Assembly: GCF_003002875.1 (NCBI RefSeq)
Contig: NZ_PVTH01000006.1
Location: 186,001 to 250,000, forward strand
Reading direction: 5' to 3'
Length of the DNA: 64,000 nt
From: Arcticibacter pallidicorallinus
GTDB lineage: Bacteria; Bacteroidota; Bacteroidia; Sphingobacteriales; Sphingobacteriaceae
Part shown: piece by piece, positions 45,911-54,956 of the stretch
How positions within the stretch are numbered: the first letter of the stretch is position 1
How the letters are laid out: the number at the start of each line of letters is the position of its first letter
Notes under the pieces: generated by a model
Told to the model about the DNA's origin: nothing
Database searches by the model: none
What the model saw: only the letters and a program-made list of their open reading frames with translations
Translations under genes and position numbers: made by a program

Positions 45911-46506
45911 GTTTTGTTTCTATCGTGAAATGCCTTTAACGCCGCCGCGTCCTTCGCCGCCTGCTTTTCTGCCTGCTGCGCCGCAAGCTCTTGTCTTTTC
46001 TCTTCAGCCTCTTCAGGTGTCATTTCCGAAAACTTATATATCAGATCAGCCACATTCGTAACGCTCCTGTCATACGTATCGGTCATCGTGATACACTCCG
46101 TTGGGCAAACCACTGTACACAATCCACAGTACATACACTTAGCCATGTCGATATCGAACTTCGCCGCATGTAGCCTTTTGGTGGTCCCATCGGAGGTAAT
46201 ACCAATGGGGCCGGTTCCTTTTATACTTTCAATCTCAATGCAATCAACCGGACAAACCTTCGCACACAAATCACATACAATACAGTCATCGATCACAACA
46301 TCCAGCTGATACCTCCCTACTTCAGGGATCGGAAGCTTTTCTTTCGGATACTGAACCGTTACCACCCCCTCCTTTTGCTCGAAATAATTATCCGAACGTA
46401 TATCCACGCTCTTCCTTCGCTTATTAACAGCAAAAAGGTGCTTCAAAGTAAGGGCCATGCCTTTCCATGAAGTTTTAATAGCGTTTATGGTTTTTCTTAT
46501 AATCAC
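45907..46506 (-). CDS. nuoI: NADH-quinone oxidoreductase subunit I (2[4Fe-4S])
   Basis: 199 residues with a GTG start at 46506, supported by AGGAGG four bases upstream, one of the few strong Shine-Dalgarno sequences here. Two 4Fe-4S motifs, CIVCDLCAKVCPVDC and CMYCGLCTVVCPTEC, carry clusters N6a and N6b between NuoG and NuoB. The C-terminal tail is unusually charged and helical (EEAEEKRQELAAQQAEKQAA). It is the only hydrophilic-arm subunit encoded in this cluster. Confidence 0.96.
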   Translation of the reverse strand: MIIRKTINAIKTSWKGMALTLKHLFAVNKRRKSVDIRSDNYFEQKEGVVTVQYPKEKLPIPEVGRYQLDVVIDDCIVCDLCAKVCPVDCIEIESIKGTGPIGITSDGTTKRLHAAKFDIDMAKCMYCGLCTVVCPTECITMTDTYDRSVTNVADLIYKFSEMTPEEAEEKRQELAAQQAEKQAAKDAAALKAFHDRNKT

Positions 46507-46510
46507 GATA

Positions 46511-46516
46511 CCTCCT
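46511..46516 (-). promoter_or_regulatory. Strong ribosome binding site of nuoI (AGGAGG)
   Basis: AGGAGG on the minus strand with a 4-nt spacer decides the GTG start at 46506. Such sequences are rare in this window, where most leaders are A-rich. Confidence 0.75.
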
Positions 46517-46521
46517 CTTCT

Positions 46522-47592
46522 TTACATGACCAGGAGACGCCACACACCCGAAATGGCCATACATAAAAAAGCCAGGGGCGTTAGTATCTTCCAGCAAAAA
46601 CTCATCAAATGGTCTACCCTTACCCGTGGCAGCGTCCACCTGATCCACATCTGAACCAACACAACCAGCAAGACCTTCGAGAAAGTCCAGAAAATGCCCC
46701 ATCCCATCCCGGTTGTCCAGTCCGCTAACCTAAGCGATCCGATATTAGGCAAAGGAGTATTCCATCCTCCCAGAAACAGCACTACTCCTACCATGCCCAC
46801 CAGGAACATCATAGCATACTCCCCGAGGAAAATAAATCCAAAACGCATTCCCGTGTATTCCGTATGAAAACCTGCCACAAGCTCAGACTCTGCCTCCGGA
46901 ATATCGAAAGGTGCACGGTTACATTCGGCTAGTGAAGCGATAAAGTAAATGACATAAGCTACAATCAGATGAGGAGCCTGGAAAATATGCCAGGAAAAAA
47001 TCCCTCCGATATTCGTCACATCCCAGAACCCCATAAACCAGATGGTTTCCGGAGTTCCCACCCCCTGCCTCGAAGCGATCGCATGCATATCCAGAGACTG
47101 CGCGATCATTACAGCAGAAATGATGGCTATACCGGCAGGTATTTCATAAGATATTACCTGGGCAACCGACCTCAGTGCGCCCAATAAAGAATATTTATTG
47201 TTAGATCCCCAGCCGGCCATCAGGATTCCGATCGCTTCTATCGATATAATGGCAAAAATGTAAACAACGCCGATATTCAGCGCCGCAGGAATAACGCCCG
47301 GCGCCCAGGGAAGAGCCGCGAATCCCATATAAACCGAAATAAAGATGATAATGGGTGCCAACGCAAACAAGATCTTGTCAGCCGCAGTCGGTGTAATTTG
47401 CTCCTTCTGTAAAAGCTTCAAAGCATCGGCGAGCGTCTGCATGGTTCCCCACTTACCGTTCTCCATCGGGCCTAGGCGATCCTGGATGAAACCTGCCACT
47501 TTCCGCTCTGCGTACACACTAAACAACGCAAAGATTGCTGCGAAAGAGAAGAGCAGGACACTAATCAGAATATATGTTATATAGAAATTCAA
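46522..47592 (-). CDS. nuoH: NADH-quinone oxidoreductase subunit H
   Basis: 356 residues, about eight membrane helices. RKVAGFIQDRLGPMENGKW is the conserved first loop, AECNRAPFDIPEAESELVAGF the quinone-cavity segment with its Glu and Arg residues, and GMRFGFIFLGEYAMMFLV the third motif. It forms the quinone chamber of complex I. The start is TTG at 47592, since no ATG lies earlier in frame. It heads the cluster nuoHIJKLMN, with an exact promoter box 19 nt upstream. Confidence 0.95.
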   Translation of the reverse strand: MNFYITYILISVLLFSFAAIFALFSVYAERKVAGFIQDRLGPMENGKWGTMQTLADALKLLQKEQITPTAADKILFALAPIIIFISVYMGFAALPWAPGVIPAALNIGVVYIFAIISIEAIGILMAGWGSNNKYSLLGALRSVAQVISYEIPAGIAIISAVMIAQSLDMHAIASRQGVGTPETIWFMGFWDVTNIGGIFSWHIFQAPHLIVAYVIYFIASLAECNRAPFDIPEAESELVAGFHTEYTGMRFGFIFLGEYAMMFLVGMVGVVLFLGGWNTPLPNIGSLRLADWTTGMGWGIFWTFSKVLLVVLVQMWIRWTLPRVRVDHLMSFCWKILTPLAFLCMAISGVWRLLVM

Positions 47593-47611
47593 TTTTATCG
47601 CTTCGTACCTG

Positions 47612-47619
47612 CAAACTTA
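47612..47619 (-). promoter_or_regulatory. Promoter -7 box of nuoHIJKLMN (TAAGTTTG)
   Basis: Exact TANNTTTG match on the minus strand, 19 nt before the nuoH TTG start. A CTG in place of TTG lies 18 nt further upstream. Confidence 0.6.
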
Positions 47620-47733
47620 AAAAATACAGACGATAATCAGCGCATTTAATAAGATATGAATCTGAAGTGATAAAAGTGAATTTCTGACACCTTTAAGAAA
47701 ACCCGATGCACTTTATGTTCAACGTATTAATTA

Positions 47734-47741
47734 TATATTTG
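47734..47741 (+). promoter_or_regulatory. Promoter -7 box of the metal-efflux operon (TATATTTG)
   Basis: Exact TANNTTTG match ending 4 nt before the GTG at 47746. If used, the transcript begins at or near the start codon. No clear TTG element was found at -33. Confidence 0.5.
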
Positions 47742-47745
47742 CCCT

Positions 47746-48057
47746 GTGAAAGCTCTTTGCTACATATTATGTGTCATGGTTCTGGTTTTGGGTCTTATAC
47801 CCTGCGCCGATGTGCATGCGGAATCAGGCAAAGAGAAAGTCGAGGTAAGAAGTGCTGCAGATTCCTCAAATCATATTGAAGGAGATACCTGCTCTCCTTT
47901 TTGTCAGTGTACTTGCTGCACGAGTCCTACCCTAATCTACTTAACTACCTCCACGATTGCTATAACCGGGCGCCTGCATAAGTGTTACGGTGAGCATTTG
48001 TCCGGACAGAAAATGGAAACCCTGTTTTCCATATGGCAACCTCCCCGCTTAAGCTAA
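47746..48057 (+). CDS. DUF6660 family small Cys-rich secreted protein
   Basis: 103 residues from the GTG at 47746; the ATG at 47776 would leave a signal peptide too short. A signal peptide (about 1-25, with LGLIPCADVHA) is followed by a Cys-rich centre: DTCSPFCQCTCCTS. From memory this is the DUF6660 family, which sits in front of cation-efflux genes in Bacteroidota. The five Cys in 11 residues suggest a periplasmic metal-binding or sensing role; that is inference. The efflux pump gene follows 69 bp downstream. Confidence 0.7.
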   Translation: MKALCYILCVMVLVLGLIPCADVHAESGKEKVEVRSAADSSNHIEGDTCSPFCQCTCCTSPTLIYLTTSTIAITGRLHKCYGEHLSGQKMETLFSIWQPPRLS

Positions 48058-48126
48058 CTGCATGTTTAAGGTAGCCCTCTGCTGCCATAGCTCATACTAT
48101 CTCTTTTAATTCAATCGTAACATTCC

Positions 48127-51100
48127 ATGTTAGATAAAATAATTCTTTATTCCGTACGGAATAAGGTTGTTGTTGCCGTTGGCGTCATACTCCTGATAAT
48201 CTGGGGAGCTTATTCAGCATTCAACCTTCCCATAGACGCGGTTCCTGACATAACCAACAACCAGGTGCAGGTAATTACTCAGGCACCCGATCTGGGTGCC
48301 CAGGAAGTAGAGCAGTTCATCACGAACCCTGTAGAACTGGCCCTCAGCAATATTGCGGACGTAGAAGAACAGCGGTCTATATCCCGCTCGGGTATCTCCG
48401 TCATTACCATCGTATTCAATGATAAGACTGACATCTACTGGGCCAGACAACAGGTTTCCGAACGCCTGAAGGAAGCAGAATCCCAGATACCGGAGGGCAT
48501 GGGAAAGCCTTCGATGGGCCCGATCACTACGGGGCTCGGTGAAATTTATCATTACGTCGTTCATACGAAGCCCGGATACGAAAAAAAATATACGGCAACA
48601 GATCTCCGGACGATTCAGGACTGGATCATCAAACGGCAGTTGACCAGTACGAAGGGGCTCGCTGAGGTCAGCGCCTGGGGTGGCCATGTCAAACAATACG
48701 AGGTCGCTGTCGATAACGACAGGTTGAATGCCTTCGGGGTCACCGTCACAGATATCTACAACGCGCTGCAGAAAAATAATGCCAACACCGGCGGATCCTA
48801 TATCGAGCAACAGAATAACGCCTACTTCATTAGAGGTCTCGGTCAGGTTAAAACCCTTTCTGACATTGGGAAAATAGTAATCTCGAACACCAAAGGGATT
48901 CCCGTACTTGTTCGGGATGTAGCCGACGTACAATTTGGGAGTGCAACACGTTATGGGGCAGTGACCCGAAACGGTGAAGGCGAGGTTGTAGCCGGCATTA
49001 CGTTGATGTTGAAAGGGGAAAATTTCAACGAAGTGATCAGGAATGTCAGAGAGCGGATGGTGCAGATCCAAAAGTCCCTGCCTGAAGGGGTCGTGATTGA
49101 GCCCTTTATTGACCGGACAGAATTGGTTGGCCGCGCAATCGGAACAGTCGAAAAGAACTTGATCGAGGGTGGCCTCATTGTCGTGTTTATCCTGGTGCTT
49201 CTACTTGGGAACCTTCGTGCAGGACTCGTGGTCGCTTCCGTCATCCCCCTCTCACTACTGTTTGCTCTGGGAATGATGCGACTATTTGGCGTATCTGGCA
49301 ACCTCATGAGCCTTGGAGCTATTGACTTTGGATTGATTGTGGATGGTGCTGTCATCATAGTGGAAAGCATTGTTCACCGGATCAGTACCGCAACGTTCCA
49401 CATCAGCGGAATTCAGAAATTAAATCAAAATCAGATGGATGAGGAAGTATATACAGCCTCCTCCAGGATCAGAAACAGTGCTGCTTTCGGGGAGATCATC
49501 ATACTGATCGTGTACCTTCCTTTACTTTCTCTCGTTGGTATCGAGGGTAAAATGTTCAGACCTATGGCTGAAACGGTCTCTTTTGCCATTCTGGGTGCAT
49601 TTATTCTTTCGCTCACCTGGGTTCCAATGGCGAGCGCCTTATTCCTGAGCAAAAAGACCACTCATAAACGCAATTTTTCTGATCGTATAATGGACTCTCT
49701 TCATCGGATCTATCAGCCTGTGTTAAACCGCACCTTAAGAATAAAGCGTACAGTCGTAATGCTCTCTGTGGCCATCCTGGCCGTAAGCATCTGGTTATTC
49801 AGTCGGATGGGCGGGGAATTTATTCCTACGTTGGAAGAAGGCGACCTGGCTGTTGAAATCAGCATGATGCAAGGAACCTCACTTACCCAGGCAATTGAAA
49901 CTTTTGGTAAAGCGGAGAAGGTACTGAAAGCCGAGTTCCCCGAGATACTCCAGGCCGTAACCCGCATAGGCAGCGCTGAAATTCCGACAGATCCTATGCC
50001 GATAGAACGTGGCGATATGATGCTTTCTATGAAACCGAAAGAAGAATGGACCCGCGCCTCAAGCCGCGCTGAAATATCCGAATTGATTGAAGAAGCCCTT
50101 TCTGTTATACCGGGGATCAGAGTAGAGGTTACTCAACCCATGCAGATGCGGTTTAACGAGCTCATGACGGGAATCCGACAGGATGTGGCGATTAAAGTAT
50201 TCGGAGATGACATGGAGATTCTGTCTGAAAACGCGGATAAGATTGCACTGCTGATCAAAGATGTTGAGGGAGTAAGTGAACCAATGGTGGAACAGGTTAG
50301 CGGACTACCGCAAATCCTGGTAACCCCCAACAGGGATATGATCGCGCAGTATGGACTTTCTATTGAAGAAGTGAACAACATTCTGCAGACTGCTTTCGCC
50401 GGAAAGATAGCTGGAGTAGTGTTTGAAGGAGACCAGCGCTTCGATCTCGTGGTAAGGCTGCGGCGTGAATTGCGGGAAGACATCAAAAGCATCGAAAACC
50501 TTTACCTGCCTCTCCCCTCAGGCAACCAGATACCTTTAAGCCAGATCGCAAAGATTGAAATCAAGGATGCGCCGGCCCAAATCTCCCATGAGGATTCCCG
50601 CAGAAGGATCTATGTTGGATTTAATGTCAGAGGACGAGATGTGGAAAGCGTGGTTTATGAAATCGAACAGAAGCTTCAAAACAATCTGAAGCTTCCATCA
50701 GGCTATTATACCACGTATGGCGGACAGTTCGAGAACCTGAACAAAGCAAAAGAAAGACTGTCTGTGGCTGTTCCTGCCGCTCTCTTACTGATCCTTTCGC
50801 TGCTCTATTTTACCTTCCGGTCTCTTAAAGAAACACTTTTGATCTTTACCGCTGTACCATTGTCTGCCATAGGAGGAATACTGGCCTTAGCTTTACGGGA
50901 TATGCCGTTCAGTATTTCAGCAGGAATAGGCTTTATAGCCCTTTTCGGAGTAGCTGTCCTGAATGGAATCGTCTTGGTCGGGTATTTTAACCAGCTGAAA
51001 GCTGAAGGGATTACCGACATCTATGAAAGAGTAAGAAAAGGCACCTACGTGAGATTAAGACCCGTTATTTTAACCGCTTCTGTGGCATCTCTCGGATTTT

Positions 51101-52500
51101 TACCGATGGCCCTTTCCACTACGGCCGGAGCTGAGGTTCAGAAACCCCTCGCAACAGTTGTTATCGGCGGTCTGATTTCCGCTACCCTGCTAACGCTGCT
51201 CATTTTGCCGGCTCTGTATATTTTGGTATTCGAAAAACAAGAAAAGAAAATGCGATTAAATCCCTGGCCTGGCCTACCGGCCATTTTCCTGATGCTGGCC
51301 CTTTCAATGACGCCGGTCGAAAGGCTGTTCGCTCAGGACACAAAGTCCTTGCACCAGGTCATTGAGATGGCAAGAGAAAGTAACCCATCTTTGAAGGCAA
51401 GCTCTCTTGCCATCGATCAGGCAGCCGCACTTCAATCTACAGCCTTTGAGCTCGACAAAACTGTGCTTACTTTATCCCAGGACCCCACCGCCGGAGGAAG
51501 CAATGATAATAGCTTGAATTTAAGTCAGTCCTTTGCGTTTCCTTCTGTGTACGCTGCCCAAAGGGATGTTCTCAAAGGAGAGCGGAGCCTCGCGGAAACA
51601 GGATTCCATCTGGCGAAACTTAACCTGATAAGAGACGTAAGCTCTGCCTATCAGCAGCTGGCCTACTTCCAGAAGAAAGCCGCGCTACTTCAATCGCTCG
51701 ACAGCATTTACAGGAACTTCGATGACCGAGCATCGGTAAGGTACAGCTCAGGTGAAACCTCCTATCTGGAAAAACTGGCTGCTCAAAGCAGGCAAAAAGA
51801 GGTCGGCATGCAACAAAGGCAAACAGAGTCTGATTTGCTGATCATGCAGGCTGAACTAAAAAAACTGACCGGAAGCAGGGAAGTGATTGTCGCTGAGGAT
51901 CTGAAAGCGCTCGATGTTGATACAGGCCGCAATCAATCCTTTGATGCAAACCCTGTGATATTACAGCAGCAAAAGGTGATAGAGATCAGCGGCGACCGCA
52001 TTCGCCTCGAAAAACGCAAGCTACTTCCCGATATCACACTCGGCTATTCTCATCAATTGATTATTCATGACTTTAATCCGGCGAATATCAGCAGAGAATA
52101 CTTTCCCGGTACACGTATCGCCGGATTTCAGGTAGGTCTTGGTATTCCGCTGGCGATCGGAGCTCAACGGGCCAGGATCAGGGCCGCTGATATCGAACGC
52201 CGGATTGCACAAAGCAGTCTGACCAGCCTTCAAAATAATCTCGGCTCAAACTACACCAAACAGGCTGCGGAGGTGAATAAACAAGTCCAGGCCTTGGAAT
52301 ACTACCAGTCTTCGGCGCTAAATGAAGCCTCAGAGATGCTGAGAATATCTCAGTTTGCCTTCGAAAAAGGCGAAATCGGCTATGTCGAACACTTGCAAAA
52401 TTTAACACAAGCTATTAATATCCGTATAGGGTATCTGGAAGCCTTGCATCAATTCAATCAGGCAACAATTCAACTGAATTATTTAAAAGGAACACTGTAA
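48127..52500 (+). CDS. cusA: CusA/CzcA-type heavy-metal RND pump fused to a TolC-family outer-membrane factor
   Basis: 1457 residues without a break. Residues 1-1040 form the RND pump with 12 membrane helices; the helix-4 proton relay has Asp400 and Asp406 (AIDFGLIVDGAVIIVES), and HME-family motifs are clear in the porter domain. After the last helix, residues 1042-1069 look like a signal peptide (MRLNPWPGL...LFA|QD), followed by a TolC-like coiled domain to 1457. The N-terminal part exports Cu/Ag or Zn/Co/Ni from periplasm; the metal is not visible. Fusion of pump and outer-membrane channel is known in Bacteroidota. The stop overlaps the next start (TAATG). Confidence 0.93.
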   Translation: MLDKIILYSVRNKVVVAVGVILLIIWGAYSAFNLPIDAVPDITNNQVQVITQAPDLGAQEVEQFITNPVELALSNIADVEEQRSISRSGISVITIVFNDKTDIYWARQQVSERLKEAESQIPEGMGKPSMGPITTGLGEIYHYVVHTKPGYEKKYTATDLRTIQDWIIKRQLTSTKGLAEVSAWGGHVKQYEVAVDNDRLNAFGVTVTDIYNALQKNNANTGGSYIEQQNNAYFIRGLGQVKTLSDIGKIVISNTKGIPVLVRDVADVQFGSATRYGAVTRNGEGEVVAGITLMLKGENFNEVIRNVRERMVQIQKSLPEGVVIEPFIDRTELVGRAIGTVEKNLIEGGLIVVFILVLLLGNLRAGLVVASVIPLSLLFALGMMRLFGVSGNLMSLGAIDFGLIVDGAVIIVESIVHRISTATFHISGIQKLNQNQMDEEVYTASSRIRNSAAFGEIIILIVYLPLLSLVGIEGKMFRPMAETVSFAILGAFILSLTWVPMASALFLSKKTTHKRNFSDRIMDSLHRIYQPVLNRTLRIKRTVVMLSVAILAVSIWLFSRMGGEFIPTLEEGDLAVEISMMQGTSLTQAIETFGKAEKVLKAEFPEILQAVTRIGSAEIPTDPMPIERGDMMLSMKPKEEWTRASSRAEISELIEEALSVIPGIRVEVTQPMQMRFNELMTGIRQDVAIKVFGDDMEILSENADKIALLIKDVEGVSEPMVEQVSGLPQILVTPNRDMIAQYGLSIEEVNNILQTAFAGKIAGVVFEGDQRFDLVVRLRRELREDIKSIENLYLPLPSGNQIPLSQIAKIEIKDAPAQISHEDSRRRIYVGFNVRGRDVESVVYEIEQKLQNNLKLPSGYYTTYGGQFENLNKAKERLSVAVPAALLLILSLLYFTFRSLKETLLIFTAVPLSAIGGILALALRDMPFSISAGIGFIALFGVAVLNGIVLVGYFNQLKAEGITDIYERVRKGTYVRLRPVILTASVASLGFLPMALSTTAGAEVQKPLATVVIGGLISATLLTLLILPALYILVFEKQEKKMRLNPWPGLPAIFLMLALSMTPVERLFAQDTKSLHQVIEMARESNPSLKASSLAIDQAAALQSTAFELDKTVLTLSQDPTAGGSNDNSLNLSQSFAFPSVYAAQRDVLKGERSLAETGFHLAKLNLIRDVSSAYQQLAYFQKKAALLQSLDSIYRNFDDRASVRYSSGETSYLEKLAAQSRQKEVGMQQRQTESDLLIMQAELKKLTGSREVIVAEDLKALDVDTGRNQSFDANPVILQQQKVIEISGDRIRLEKRKLLPDITLGYSHQLIIHDFNPANISREYFPGTRIAGFQVGLGIPLAIGAQRARIRAADIERRIAQSSLTSLQNNLGSNYTKQAAEVNKQVQALEYYQSSALNEASEMLRISQFAFEKGEIGYVEHLQNLTQAINIRIGYLEALHQFNQATIQLNYLKGTL

Positions 52501-53753
52501 TGAAATCTGCAACTTTAAAAATACATACATCTGCATCCCGCCTTGCTTTGATGCTAGGTATGCTCCTACTCATCTCTTGCTCCGGAAATAACAATCAGAC
52601 CGAGACAGAACACGAAGAAGAGGAACATTCCGATGCGCTTTCACTCACGGAAAAGCAGATGCAAGCGGTCGGAATAACCATTGGCAAAATGGAATTCAAA
52701 AATCTTAAGAGCGTCGTGAAAGCTAACGGACTCCTCGAAGTACCACCCCAAAGTAAGGCAGAGGTACATCCTCTTATAGGGGGATTGATACGAAGGATAC
52801 ATGTGCTGGAAGGAAGCTACGTTCGCAAAGGACAAACATTGGTTACACTGGAGAACCCAGAGTTCATTCAGGTGCAGCAGGATTATCTTGCGTCTAAAAG
52901 CGCACTCTCTTTTGCTGAAAAAGAATATGCACGTCAGAAAGAACTGATGGCTGCGAAAGCGGGGACCGGAAAAGTCTATCAGCAGGCCGAAGCAAACTAT
53001 TTTTCCGAACAGGCTCGCTTCCGGACGCTGCAAAGTCAGCTCAAACAGATGGGAATTAGCGTTAGTCGCCTCGATAGAGGCGATGTAATTACTCAGCTGG
53101 CCGTTTCAGCACCGATCAGCGGCGTAGTGGGCCATATCATGGCAACCACCGGAAGCTTCGCTGAAATAAGTAATCCGCTTATGAACATTACCGATAACAG
53201 CAGCATCCACTGCGACTTGCTGGTGTATGAAAAAGACTTGTTCAACGTAAAAACCGGTCAGCAAGTAGACTTTGTTTTAACCAATCAGGGCAATCAAAAG
53301 ATTACCGGAAAGATCTACGGGATCAATAAATCTTTTGAGAATGACAGTAAAGCAGTGATCGCACACGCTCGAATTGACAACAGCGCGAATAAGAACCTGA
53401 TCCCGGGTATGTATGTTTCTGCATTAATCAATGTCGGAAATCAAGCCACCAGAGCTGTACCACTCGATGCCGTGGTAAGTGCTCAAGGGAAGAGTTTCAT
53501 CTTTGTAGTAGATAACGTGCAAAATAAGGAAGTACGTGAAGAGCATACTGAAGATCCGAAAGAAGAACGTGCTCATGAGCACGAAAACAAAGTCCATTTC
53601 AGACCGCTTGAGGTTGTCACCGGGGTATCTGATTTAGGCTACATGGAAATCAAGCTGCTAAATGCAATTGCTGAAGAGACAGCCATCGTCACCAAAGGTG
53701 CATTTTACCTCCAGTCAAAAGCCGCAGGCGGAGGGGGTGAGCACCAGCATTAA
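52500..53753 (+). CDS. cusB: Periplasmic adaptor subunit of the metal efflux pump (CusB/CzcB type), lipoprotein
   Basis: 417 residues. Lipobox LLISC with Cys27 anchors it to the membrane. A His/Glu-rich stretch (about 35-45, TETEHEEEEHSD) and a second one (EEHTEDPKEERAHEHE) could bind metal. A barrel-sandwich hybrid (SKAEVHPLIGGLIRRIHVLE and APISGVVGHIM), an alpha-hairpin and a beta-barrel follow, as in HlyD/CusB adaptors. It links RND pump and channel. The start overlaps the pump stop by one base. Confidence 0.9.
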   Translation: MKSATLKIHTSASRLALMLGMLLLISCSGNNNQTETEHEEEEHSDALSLTEKQMQAVGITIGKMEFKNLKSVVKANGLLEVPPQSKAEVHPLIGGLIRRIHVLEGSYVRKGQTLVTLENPEFIQVQQDYLASKSALSFAEKEYARQKELMAAKAGTGKVYQQAEANYFSEQARFRTLQSQLKQMGISVSRLDRGDVITQLAVSAPISGVVGHIMATTGSFAEISNPLMNITDNSSIHCDLLVYEKDLFNVKTGQQVDFVLTNQGNQKITGKIYGINKSFENDSKAVIAHARIDNSANKNLIPGMYVSALINVGNQATRAVPLDAVVSAQGKSFIFVVDNVQNKEVREEHTEDPKEERAHEHENKVHFRPLEVVTGVSDLGYMEIKLLNAIAEETAIVTKGAFYLQSKAAGGGGEHQH

Positions 53754-53771
53754 TTGGCCTTCATCTGAAAC

Positions 53772-53805
53772 AAAAAAGGCGAAGCCCCCTATGAGAGCTT
53801 CGCCT
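53772..53805 (-). terminator. Rho-independent terminator after the OmpH genes
   Basis: On the minus strand AGGCGAAGC (53805-53797) pairs with GCTTCGCCT (53785-53777), followed by a run of six T's. It ends the uppS-bamA-ompH transcript; it also lies 18 bp beyond the convergent cusB stop, where the T-run is missing on the plus strand. Confidence 0.9.
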
Positions 53806-53826
53806 GAATAAAGTGTATGACACTTA

Positions 53827-54387
53827 TTATTTCTTAGGAGCAGCAGCAGTTGTCGCTGTGATACCCAATTTCGTTTTAACAACATTTAAGATATCATCAC
53901 CACCGTCAAAGTAAACTACTCCCGGCTGAGAGATATCAAACACATAAGCATATCCTTTTTCCTTAGCAACCGCCTTGATAGCCGTCTCTGCTTTCTGATA
54001 GATCGGCTGATATAATTCAGACTGCTTAGCACCTAGCTCCTGCTGAGCCTTCTGCTGTGTTTCCTGCATGCGTTTTTCGAAATCCTGAATTTCAGCACCC
54101 ATAGTCTCCAGTTCTTTTCCAACTGTAGCCTTGTTAGCCTCGCTTACAGTTTTCGCTTTTTCCTGATATGCTACAATTTTCTTCTCGCGCTCTGTATTCA
54201 TCAACTCCAAAGCAGTTTGTTTCTGCTTCTGGAAAGTCTGAAATGTGGCATCTGCTGTCTTAACTTCTGGCATTAATTGTAAAAGTTCCGCTGAGTTGAT
54301 ATGTGCGAACTTTTGCTGTGCATTAACCGTAGTTCCCGTTAAAAATAATCCTACCGCTACTACTGCTACTTTAACTACATTTTTCAT
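53827..54387 (-). CDS. OmpH/Skp family periplasmic chaperone (second copy)
   Basis: 186 residues. Signal peptide about 1-23 (ending VNAQ), then a beta core and long coiled-coil hairpin (QKQTALELMNTEREKKIV to QQKAQQELGAKQ). Skp-type chaperones hold outer-membrane proteins in the periplasm before BamA inserts them. The last residues are Ala- and Lys-rich (TTAAAPKK). It lies 38 bp downstream of the first ompH copy and is the last gene of the bamA operon, before a strong terminator. Confidence 0.88.
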   Translation of the reverse strand: MKNVVKVAVVAVGLFLTGTTVNAQQKFAHINSAELLQLMPEVKTADATFQTFQKQKQTALELMNTEREKKIVAYQEKAKTVSEANKATVGKELETMGAEIQDFEKRMQETQQKAQQELGAKQSELYQPIYQKAETAIKAVAKEKGYAYVFDISQPGVVYFDGGDDILNVVKTKLGITATTAAAPKK

Positions 54388-54425
54388 TCTGCTATTTTAA
54401 AAATTTACTTGGTTACTTTCAAATA

Positions 54426-54956
54426 TTACTTAACTAACGAACCGGGCTTATAACCCAAACGGGTAATCACCTCGTTACTCTTATCTAAACGCGGACTCGC
54501 GTACAACAGTATAACCTCACTGTTTTTATCCAGGATCATATCAAGTTGGTTACTCTCAGCAACGGCTTCGATCGCCCTTGCAACGCGCTCCTGAACAGGC
54601 TGAATAAGTTTGATGCGCTGTTGATACAAATCACCTTCAAATCCAAACTTTTCACGCTGAAACTCCTTCGCCGCTTTTTCCTTCTGAACGATGGCGTTCT
54701 CGCGCTCCCTGCGAACCTGTGGAGTAAGCAAAGCCAGATCCGCCTGATAAGACTTATACATATTCTCCACCTCCTTCAAACGCGTGTCTACCTGAGTTTG
54801 CCATTGTTTAGACAAAGCGTCCAGTTGCTTCTGAGCCGACACATACTCTGGAATATGCTCCAAAACATATTCGCTATCTACATAAGCAAAGCGTTGCGCG
54901 AAAGCCGAAGCTCCTGAAAGGCACACAAACGCTACAATAAACAACAATCTTTTCAT
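54426..54956 (-). CDS. OmpH/Skp family periplasmic chaperone (first copy)
   Basis: 176 residues from the ATG at 54956, which gives a clean signal peptide (ending ASAFAQ); a TTG six bases earlier is unlikely. The first strand RFAYVDSEYVLEHIPEYV is typical of OmpH, with a long charged coiled coil to about residue 130 and a C-terminal LDKSNEVITRLGY. It lies 12 bp after bamA. The two copies share only the general pattern, so they diverged long ago. Confidence 0.88.
   Translation of the reverse strand: MKRLLFIVAFVCLSGASAFAQRFAYVDSEYVLEHIPEYVSAQKQLDALSKQWQTQVDTRLKEVENMYKSYQADLALLTPQVRRERENAIVQKEKAAKEFQREKFGFEGDLYQQRIKLIQPVQERVARAIEAVAESNQLDMILDKNSEVILLYASPRLDKSNEVITRLGYKPGSLVK

Follow-up and report, generated by a model that had tools for sequence, protein, structure and literature searches.

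The tripartite heavy-metal efflux systems CusCBA, CzcCBA and ZneCAB are built from the same families of RND (resistance-nodulation-division) pump, periplasmic adaptor and outer-membrane channel that are encoded together at a locus of Arcticibacter pallidicorallinus. This locus lies in the window analysed here, a stretch of 64,000 nucleotides (contig NZ_PVTH01000006.1, positions 186,001 to 250,000 of the forward strand) on whose own numbering all positions below are given. The adaptor gene of the window lies directly downstream of the pump gene; unlike in the described systems, pump and channel share one frame (48127-52500, + strand, as are all features below) and the candidate signal peptide of the channel lies inside it. 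This single open reading frame begins with ATG and encodes 1457 amino acids, and its product is a member of the fused CusA/CzcA-channel proteins of Bacteroidota (approximately 1440-1530 amino acids); pump-channel fusion is itself common in sequence data.

A comparable arrangement is known from the fbcH gene of Bradyrhizobium, which encodes a cytochrome b/cytochrome c1 polyprotein in which a polytopic inner-membrane protein is followed by an internal signal peptide that is cut, releasing the second protein. Whereas the fbcH product remains at the inner membrane and in the periplasm, the channel of the window protein has to reach the outer membrane; the RND-channel fusions, unlike fbcH, also have a lipoprotein version. 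Searches of open-licence literature, at the level of the titles and abstract openings listed, gave no account of an RND-channel fusion with a processed internal signal. The majority of signal peptidase I substrates in Bacteroidetes have glutamine (Q) directly after the cut, at position +1, where it is converted to pyroglutamate; the mean +1 Q frequency over species is given as 71% (PMC5837995), and pyroglutamate formation is described as stabilising exported proteins (PMC10653852). The window protein likewise has Q directly after its predicted signal peptidase I site. In the accessible portions of both sources this Q-rule is described for N-terminal signal peptides, whereas the window signal is internal, and the terms 'internal signal', 'RND' and 'TolC' do not occur there (PMC5837995, PMC10653852).

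The preferred reading of the window gene, held with a probability of roughly 0.85, is that the channel would be the C-terminal part of a polyprotein, freed at an internal signal peptide. One polypeptide would be made, and the inserted pump would have a cytoplasmic C-terminus after its last transmembrane helix (TM12); the charged tail and the short hydrophobic stretch that follow would form an internal signal peptide, restarting Sec export of the downstream chain. Signal peptidase I would then cleave behind A1069, glutaminyl cyclase would cyclise the new N-terminal Q1070 to pyroglutamate, and the freed channel would proceed to the outer membrane and assemble in the normal way. The pump would retain a 34-residue C-terminal stub, possibly as a 13th membrane segment, and the fusion would supply pump and channel at 1:1, the ratio needed for trimer-trimer assembly. 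This would explain, on comparative evidence, how a channel can still arrive at the outer membrane although it is joined to an inner-membrane pump.

The seam of the window protein

The two halves of the protein are readily assigned. The pump domain (residues 1-1035, 48127..51231) matches Pfam ACR_tran over residues 6-1034 and TIGR00914, the CusA/CzcA subfamily, over residues 1-1042 with 1196.7 bits against a cut-off of 701.45; its best sequence match in the PDB is ZneA, followed by CusA, and in none of the 60 PDB chains listed does the best stretch lie beyond residue 1046 of the fusion protein. The predicted mature channel (Q1070-1457, 51334..52497) matches Pfam OEP in two stretches (105.5 bits, ending at residue 1455), and profile comparison gives SilC, OprM, CusC and TolC as its relatives of solved structure. 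A Foldseek search with the model of the channel half returned TolC (1ek9, E 3.4e-17), CusC (E 5.9e-16) and also SilC, placing it in the TolC fold. By these comparisons the gene encodes an RND pump of the CusA/CzcA type with a channel of the TolC/CusC type attached to it, and heavy-metal export is its predicted function.

The sequence at the seam is EKQEKKMRLNPWPGLPAIFLMLALSMTPVERLFA|QD. TM12 (residues 1020-1039, 51184..51243, placed by the AlphaFold2 helix and hydropathy) is followed by the positively charged tail that would serve as n-region (residues 1036-1049, 51232..51273, assigned on net charge, +2 in this protein) and by the putative hydrophobic core (residues 1050-1061, 51274..51309, assigned on sequence, hydropathy and a low-confidence model helix). 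The c-region (51310..51333) ends in LFA, with L at -3 and A at -1, and from the junction statistics the signal peptidase I cut is predicted after A1069 (51331-51333), that is at 51333/51334. The charged n-region is followed by an uncharged run of 11 and then by LFA|Q. The AlphaFold2 model of residues 1019-1457 (mean pLDDT 85.5) likewise consists of a helix at 1020-1039, a short low-confidence helix at 1051-1060, disorder to about residue 1069 and then standard channel topology. An in-frame internal ATG, M1042, lies in the tail at 51250..51252; sequence and family codon counts mark it as a possible secondary start that is not conserved. The first-pass annotation, made on the window alone, had described a pump and channel in one frame with a signal peptide-like stretch ending LFA|QD; this description is confirmed, and its placement of M1042 and A1069 is exact. 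A terminator-like hairpin pattern also falls within the stretch coding for the signal peptide (51270-51283); 16 such patterns occur in the scanned region, against 6.4 in shuffles.

Conservation across fused and split relatives

Fusions were collected as pump and channel profiles both matching one stop-free DNA frame, from the contigs of named genomes and from 296 Bacteroidota genomes. The 152 found include one (L002) that was removed because it lacks the CusA-type anchor and belongs to another pump type, and a duplicate of the window gene (L083) was skipped; the 151 CusA-type fusions analysed comprise 2 from the window's own genome (the window protein included), 38 from named loci and 111 others. 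Because sampling used a fused profile, the sample is silent on how common fusion is. Listed open-frame length proved an unreliable sign of fusion, with the pump frame ending before the channel in 10 of 13 fetched regions and an in-frame stop between pump and channel in all six that were read; therefore all fusion counts were taken from stop-free DNA frames.

The most telling property of the family is the residue that follows the predicted cut. A site finder that scores the hydrophobic core and small residues at -3 and -1 and ignores the next residue placed Q at +1 in 117 of 151 junctions (77%), against a mean of 6.7% and a maximum of 11.3% in 20 sets of shuffled junctions. Among the 90 fusions with less than 80% pump identity the count was 67, against a mean of 6.05 and a maximum of 13 of 90 over 200 shuffles; a finder that rewards Q raised the two figures to 145/151 and 84/90. 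In alignments of 27 and 38 fusions the linkers diverge and Q1070 is nearly invariant (at least 90%). A positively charged tail is present in 97% of the 151 junctions, and the family has the hallmarks of signal peptidase I substrates: a positive n-region, a core of hydrophobic residues and, at -3 and -1, small residues. The signal at the seam is therefore, as judged from sequence, beyond chance at the family level.

Because +1 Q is kept at a rate like that of published signal peptidase I substrates, the internal seam appears to behave as a real signal peptide that is cut. More specifically, conservation of Q exactly at +1 is expected only if a cut exposes it. The window's own genome encodes signal peptidase I as well as glutaminyl cyclase (PF05096 at G000:C2:106221, E 8.3e-88), so that both parts of the Q-rule, Q1070 at +1 and the cyclising enzyme, are present. 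Two origins of the channel had been proposed in the first-pass annotation: cleavage of a polyprotein at the seam, and a separate product from the internal ATG. The retention of +1 Q in strongly diverged fusions supports the first of these; the second does not stand as a general mechanism, the start not being conserved, though the ATG of the window member does have a start-like context.

The fusion set aside above is a second pump-channel fusion in the same genome (L002, G000:C5, 1522 amino acids); it is of the multidrug type, and its seam carries a lipoprotein box, LFISGC. A search for multidrug-type (HAE1-type) relatives gave 80 strong matches in 251 genomes of the family, and of the 51 loci read, 46 were fused and 5 were split by TAA (the fused relatives of L002 are L249, L255-L283 and L300-L314). 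A lipobox follows a hydrophobic core in 46 of 46 fused loci, against a mean of 0.28 and a maximum of 2 of 46 in shuffled seams; these fusions are closely related, and only 10 fall below 80% identity when the last 450 pump residues are compared. Within codons 12-40 before the cysteine, ATG is missing from 35 of the 46 seams, and 22 seams lack all three of ATG, GTG and TTG. The own genome contains the LspA and Lgt genes. The multidrug-type fusion appears to have arisen independently of the CusA-type fusion, and its seam would be a lipoprotein signal situated within a 12-helix protein and lacking a start codon of its own. In L296-L299 and L315 the multidrug-type pump and channel are parted by one in-frame TAA and a new start; these loci may represent fission caught at the same seam.

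Taken with the CusA-type family, these fusions make it probable that in Bacteroidota certain tripartite efflux pumps are synthesised as membrane polyproteins. An internal signal would drive export of the channel from the C-terminus of the pump, and release would fall to signal peptidase I (Q-rule type). In the multidrug-type fusion, with its apparently independent origin, Lgt would add a lipid and signal peptidase II would release the channel. The predicted channel N-termini are pyroglutamate-1070 in the window protein and a lipidated cysteine in its sister fusion. If so, annotation of one 1450-residue 'transporter' conceals two mature proteins, and signal peptide predictors confined to N-termini would overlook such outer-membrane proteins.

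Relatives with separate genes have the same signal in its ordinary position. The channel gene follows the pump in 14 of 20 split relatives and begins with an ordinary N-terminal signal; its ATG overlaps the pump stop codon in three of them (L048, L183 and L193), and Q occupies +1 in 12 of 14 of these signals, judged by eye. The signal at the seam and the N-terminal channel signal are therefore probably one element in two settings. On a tree of the 151 fused and 20 split pumps there are 12 changes of state, at least 9 of them on well-supported branches. Because split pumps are placed both basally and within the fused clade, the tree suggests one old fusion followed by repeated fission, with an uncertain root, since long branches join at the outgroup.

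Competing accounts of the free channel

The alternative that survives best applies to the window member itself: the channel could be produced both by cleavage of the polyprotein and by a ribosome start at the ATG at 51250, which would supply additional channel bearing a conventional N-terminal signal peptide, each route yielding the same Q1070 N-terminus. The first-pass annotation had pointed to an A-rich stretch before this ATG, and the 18 nucleotides in question are indeed 78% A, against 28% across the gene. This A excess is the highest among the 69 junction ATGs of the family and is matched by none of 4609 other in-frame pump ATGs. A relative of the same genus (L285) has ATG ATG after an A-rich run in a similar context, and several split relatives start at the position of the window ATG. 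Against this, the closest named relative (L039, Pedobacter quisquiliarum, 81% identical) has CTT in place of ATG, and the methionine is not conserved in the family. An A-rich tail is also expected from the Lys and Glu codons of an n-region, and part of the excess is explained by the Lys, Glu and Gln codons of the positively charged tail. Moreover, the vestige of a split ancestor would look identical. Dual production in the window member is thus a tentative proposal and rather unlikely.

Internal initiation as the main or sole source of free channel, with the full-length product left uncut, is far harder to sustain. It has in its favour the start-like ATG of the window member. When start codons were counted 14-40 residues before the cut, and not past the start of the hydrophobic core, an in-frame ATG was found in 69 of 151 fusions (about 40% would be expected from methionine composition) and any of ATG, GTG or TTG in 107, leaving 44 with none of the three. 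Those 44, like the 22 of 46 lipoprotein-type fusions in the same state, keep their signals regardless. Between pumps that are 85-95% identical (69 pairs) the methionine is common to 32, differs in 25 and is absent from both members in 12. The conserved start codon of a separately initiated gene is thus absent, and because the in-frame start is not conserved, internal initiation is not supported by the sequences as a general mechanism for the channel, was rejected as the only route, and is considered very improbable even as the main one.

Also highly unlikely is an uncleaved protein, in which the hydrophobic stretch would form a 13th transmembrane helix and the channel would work tethered to the pump. 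In its favour, fusions with this one-frame structure are ancient and occur widely in the clade. The stretch is, however, shorter than TM12 and less hydrophobic (means over 19 residues of 1.47 against 2.35 in the window protein; family medians of 1.62 against 2.34), and the conservation of AxA|Q has no role if no cut is made. A lipobox likewise serves a purpose only in a chain that is cleaved ahead of its cysteine, which argues against an uncut product for the multidrug-type fusions. Geometry points the same way. The distance from the predicted cut to the channel domain has a median of 8 residues (5th-95th percentile 7-15). In the accessible portion of one source, the N-terminal helix of TolC spans between the equatorial and outer-membrane parts, and lipidated TolC homologues have their N-terminus in the inner leaflet of the outer membrane (PMC13082787). 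Given this topology, a linker of about 8 residues would be too short to cross the periplasm, so that an uncut chain would be unable to span the gap between the inner membrane and a channel seated in the outer membrane. On hydrophobicity, linker length and the conservation of Q and of the lipobox, the 13-helix protein was rejected. An artefact of assembly or annotation, which the existence of split relatives might suggest, was rejected as having a negligible chance of being correct, with 151 stop-free frames coming from many independent genomes, some of them complete single contigs.

Several observations weigh against cleavage of a polyprotein. The signal site finder is home-made rather than SignalP, and 6 of 151 junctions lack a +1 Q even when the finder rewards it. 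The c-region of the window protein is long, contains E and R and is weaker than in most relatives; judged alone, the window signal peptide is for this reason only moderate. Other points concern the junction methionine. Its state changes 42 times on the tree, slightly below the mean of 50 for shuffled labels (6 of 300 shuffles were as low). The A excess averages 0.189 in seams with ATG against 0.119 in start-less seams (p 0.013, kinship uncorrected), and the share of AAA among lysine codons in ATG-bearing seams is 0.83 for the tail and 0.77 for the gene, the corresponding values where no start exists being 0.69 and 0.73. Lysine directly follows the junction methionine in 24 of 69. These start-like traits are compatible with additional initiation in some members, or with what is left of a formerly independent gene.

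Neighbouring genes and further observations

The periplasmic adaptor gene (RND_mfp, 52500..53753) has an ATG that overlaps the fusion stop codon by one base, the last of that codon; its product starts as a lipoprotein (LISC). A scan of 46000-54500 against Rfam gave no match, and promoter-like sites were fewer than expected from shuffles, with none of use at the seam. Directly upstream of the fusion lies a gene for a small, cysteine-rich predicted secreted protein assigned by Pfam to DUF6660 (47746..48057). A homologue is present in 24 of 39 named loci, near the pump start where the offset was checked, and by analogy with CusF the protein is possibly a periplasmic metal chaperone.

Elsewhere in the genome, at G000:C2:185666-188834 (L009, L010), an RND permease is encoded as two adjacent frames of about 435 and 655 amino acids, an arrangement also seen in L079 and L080. 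Matches to the second half occur in 26 of 61 family genomes and mostly lie in an open frame of about 640-680 amino acids. Because it recurs in this way as a frame of similar length, the pair looks like a real two-gene permease.

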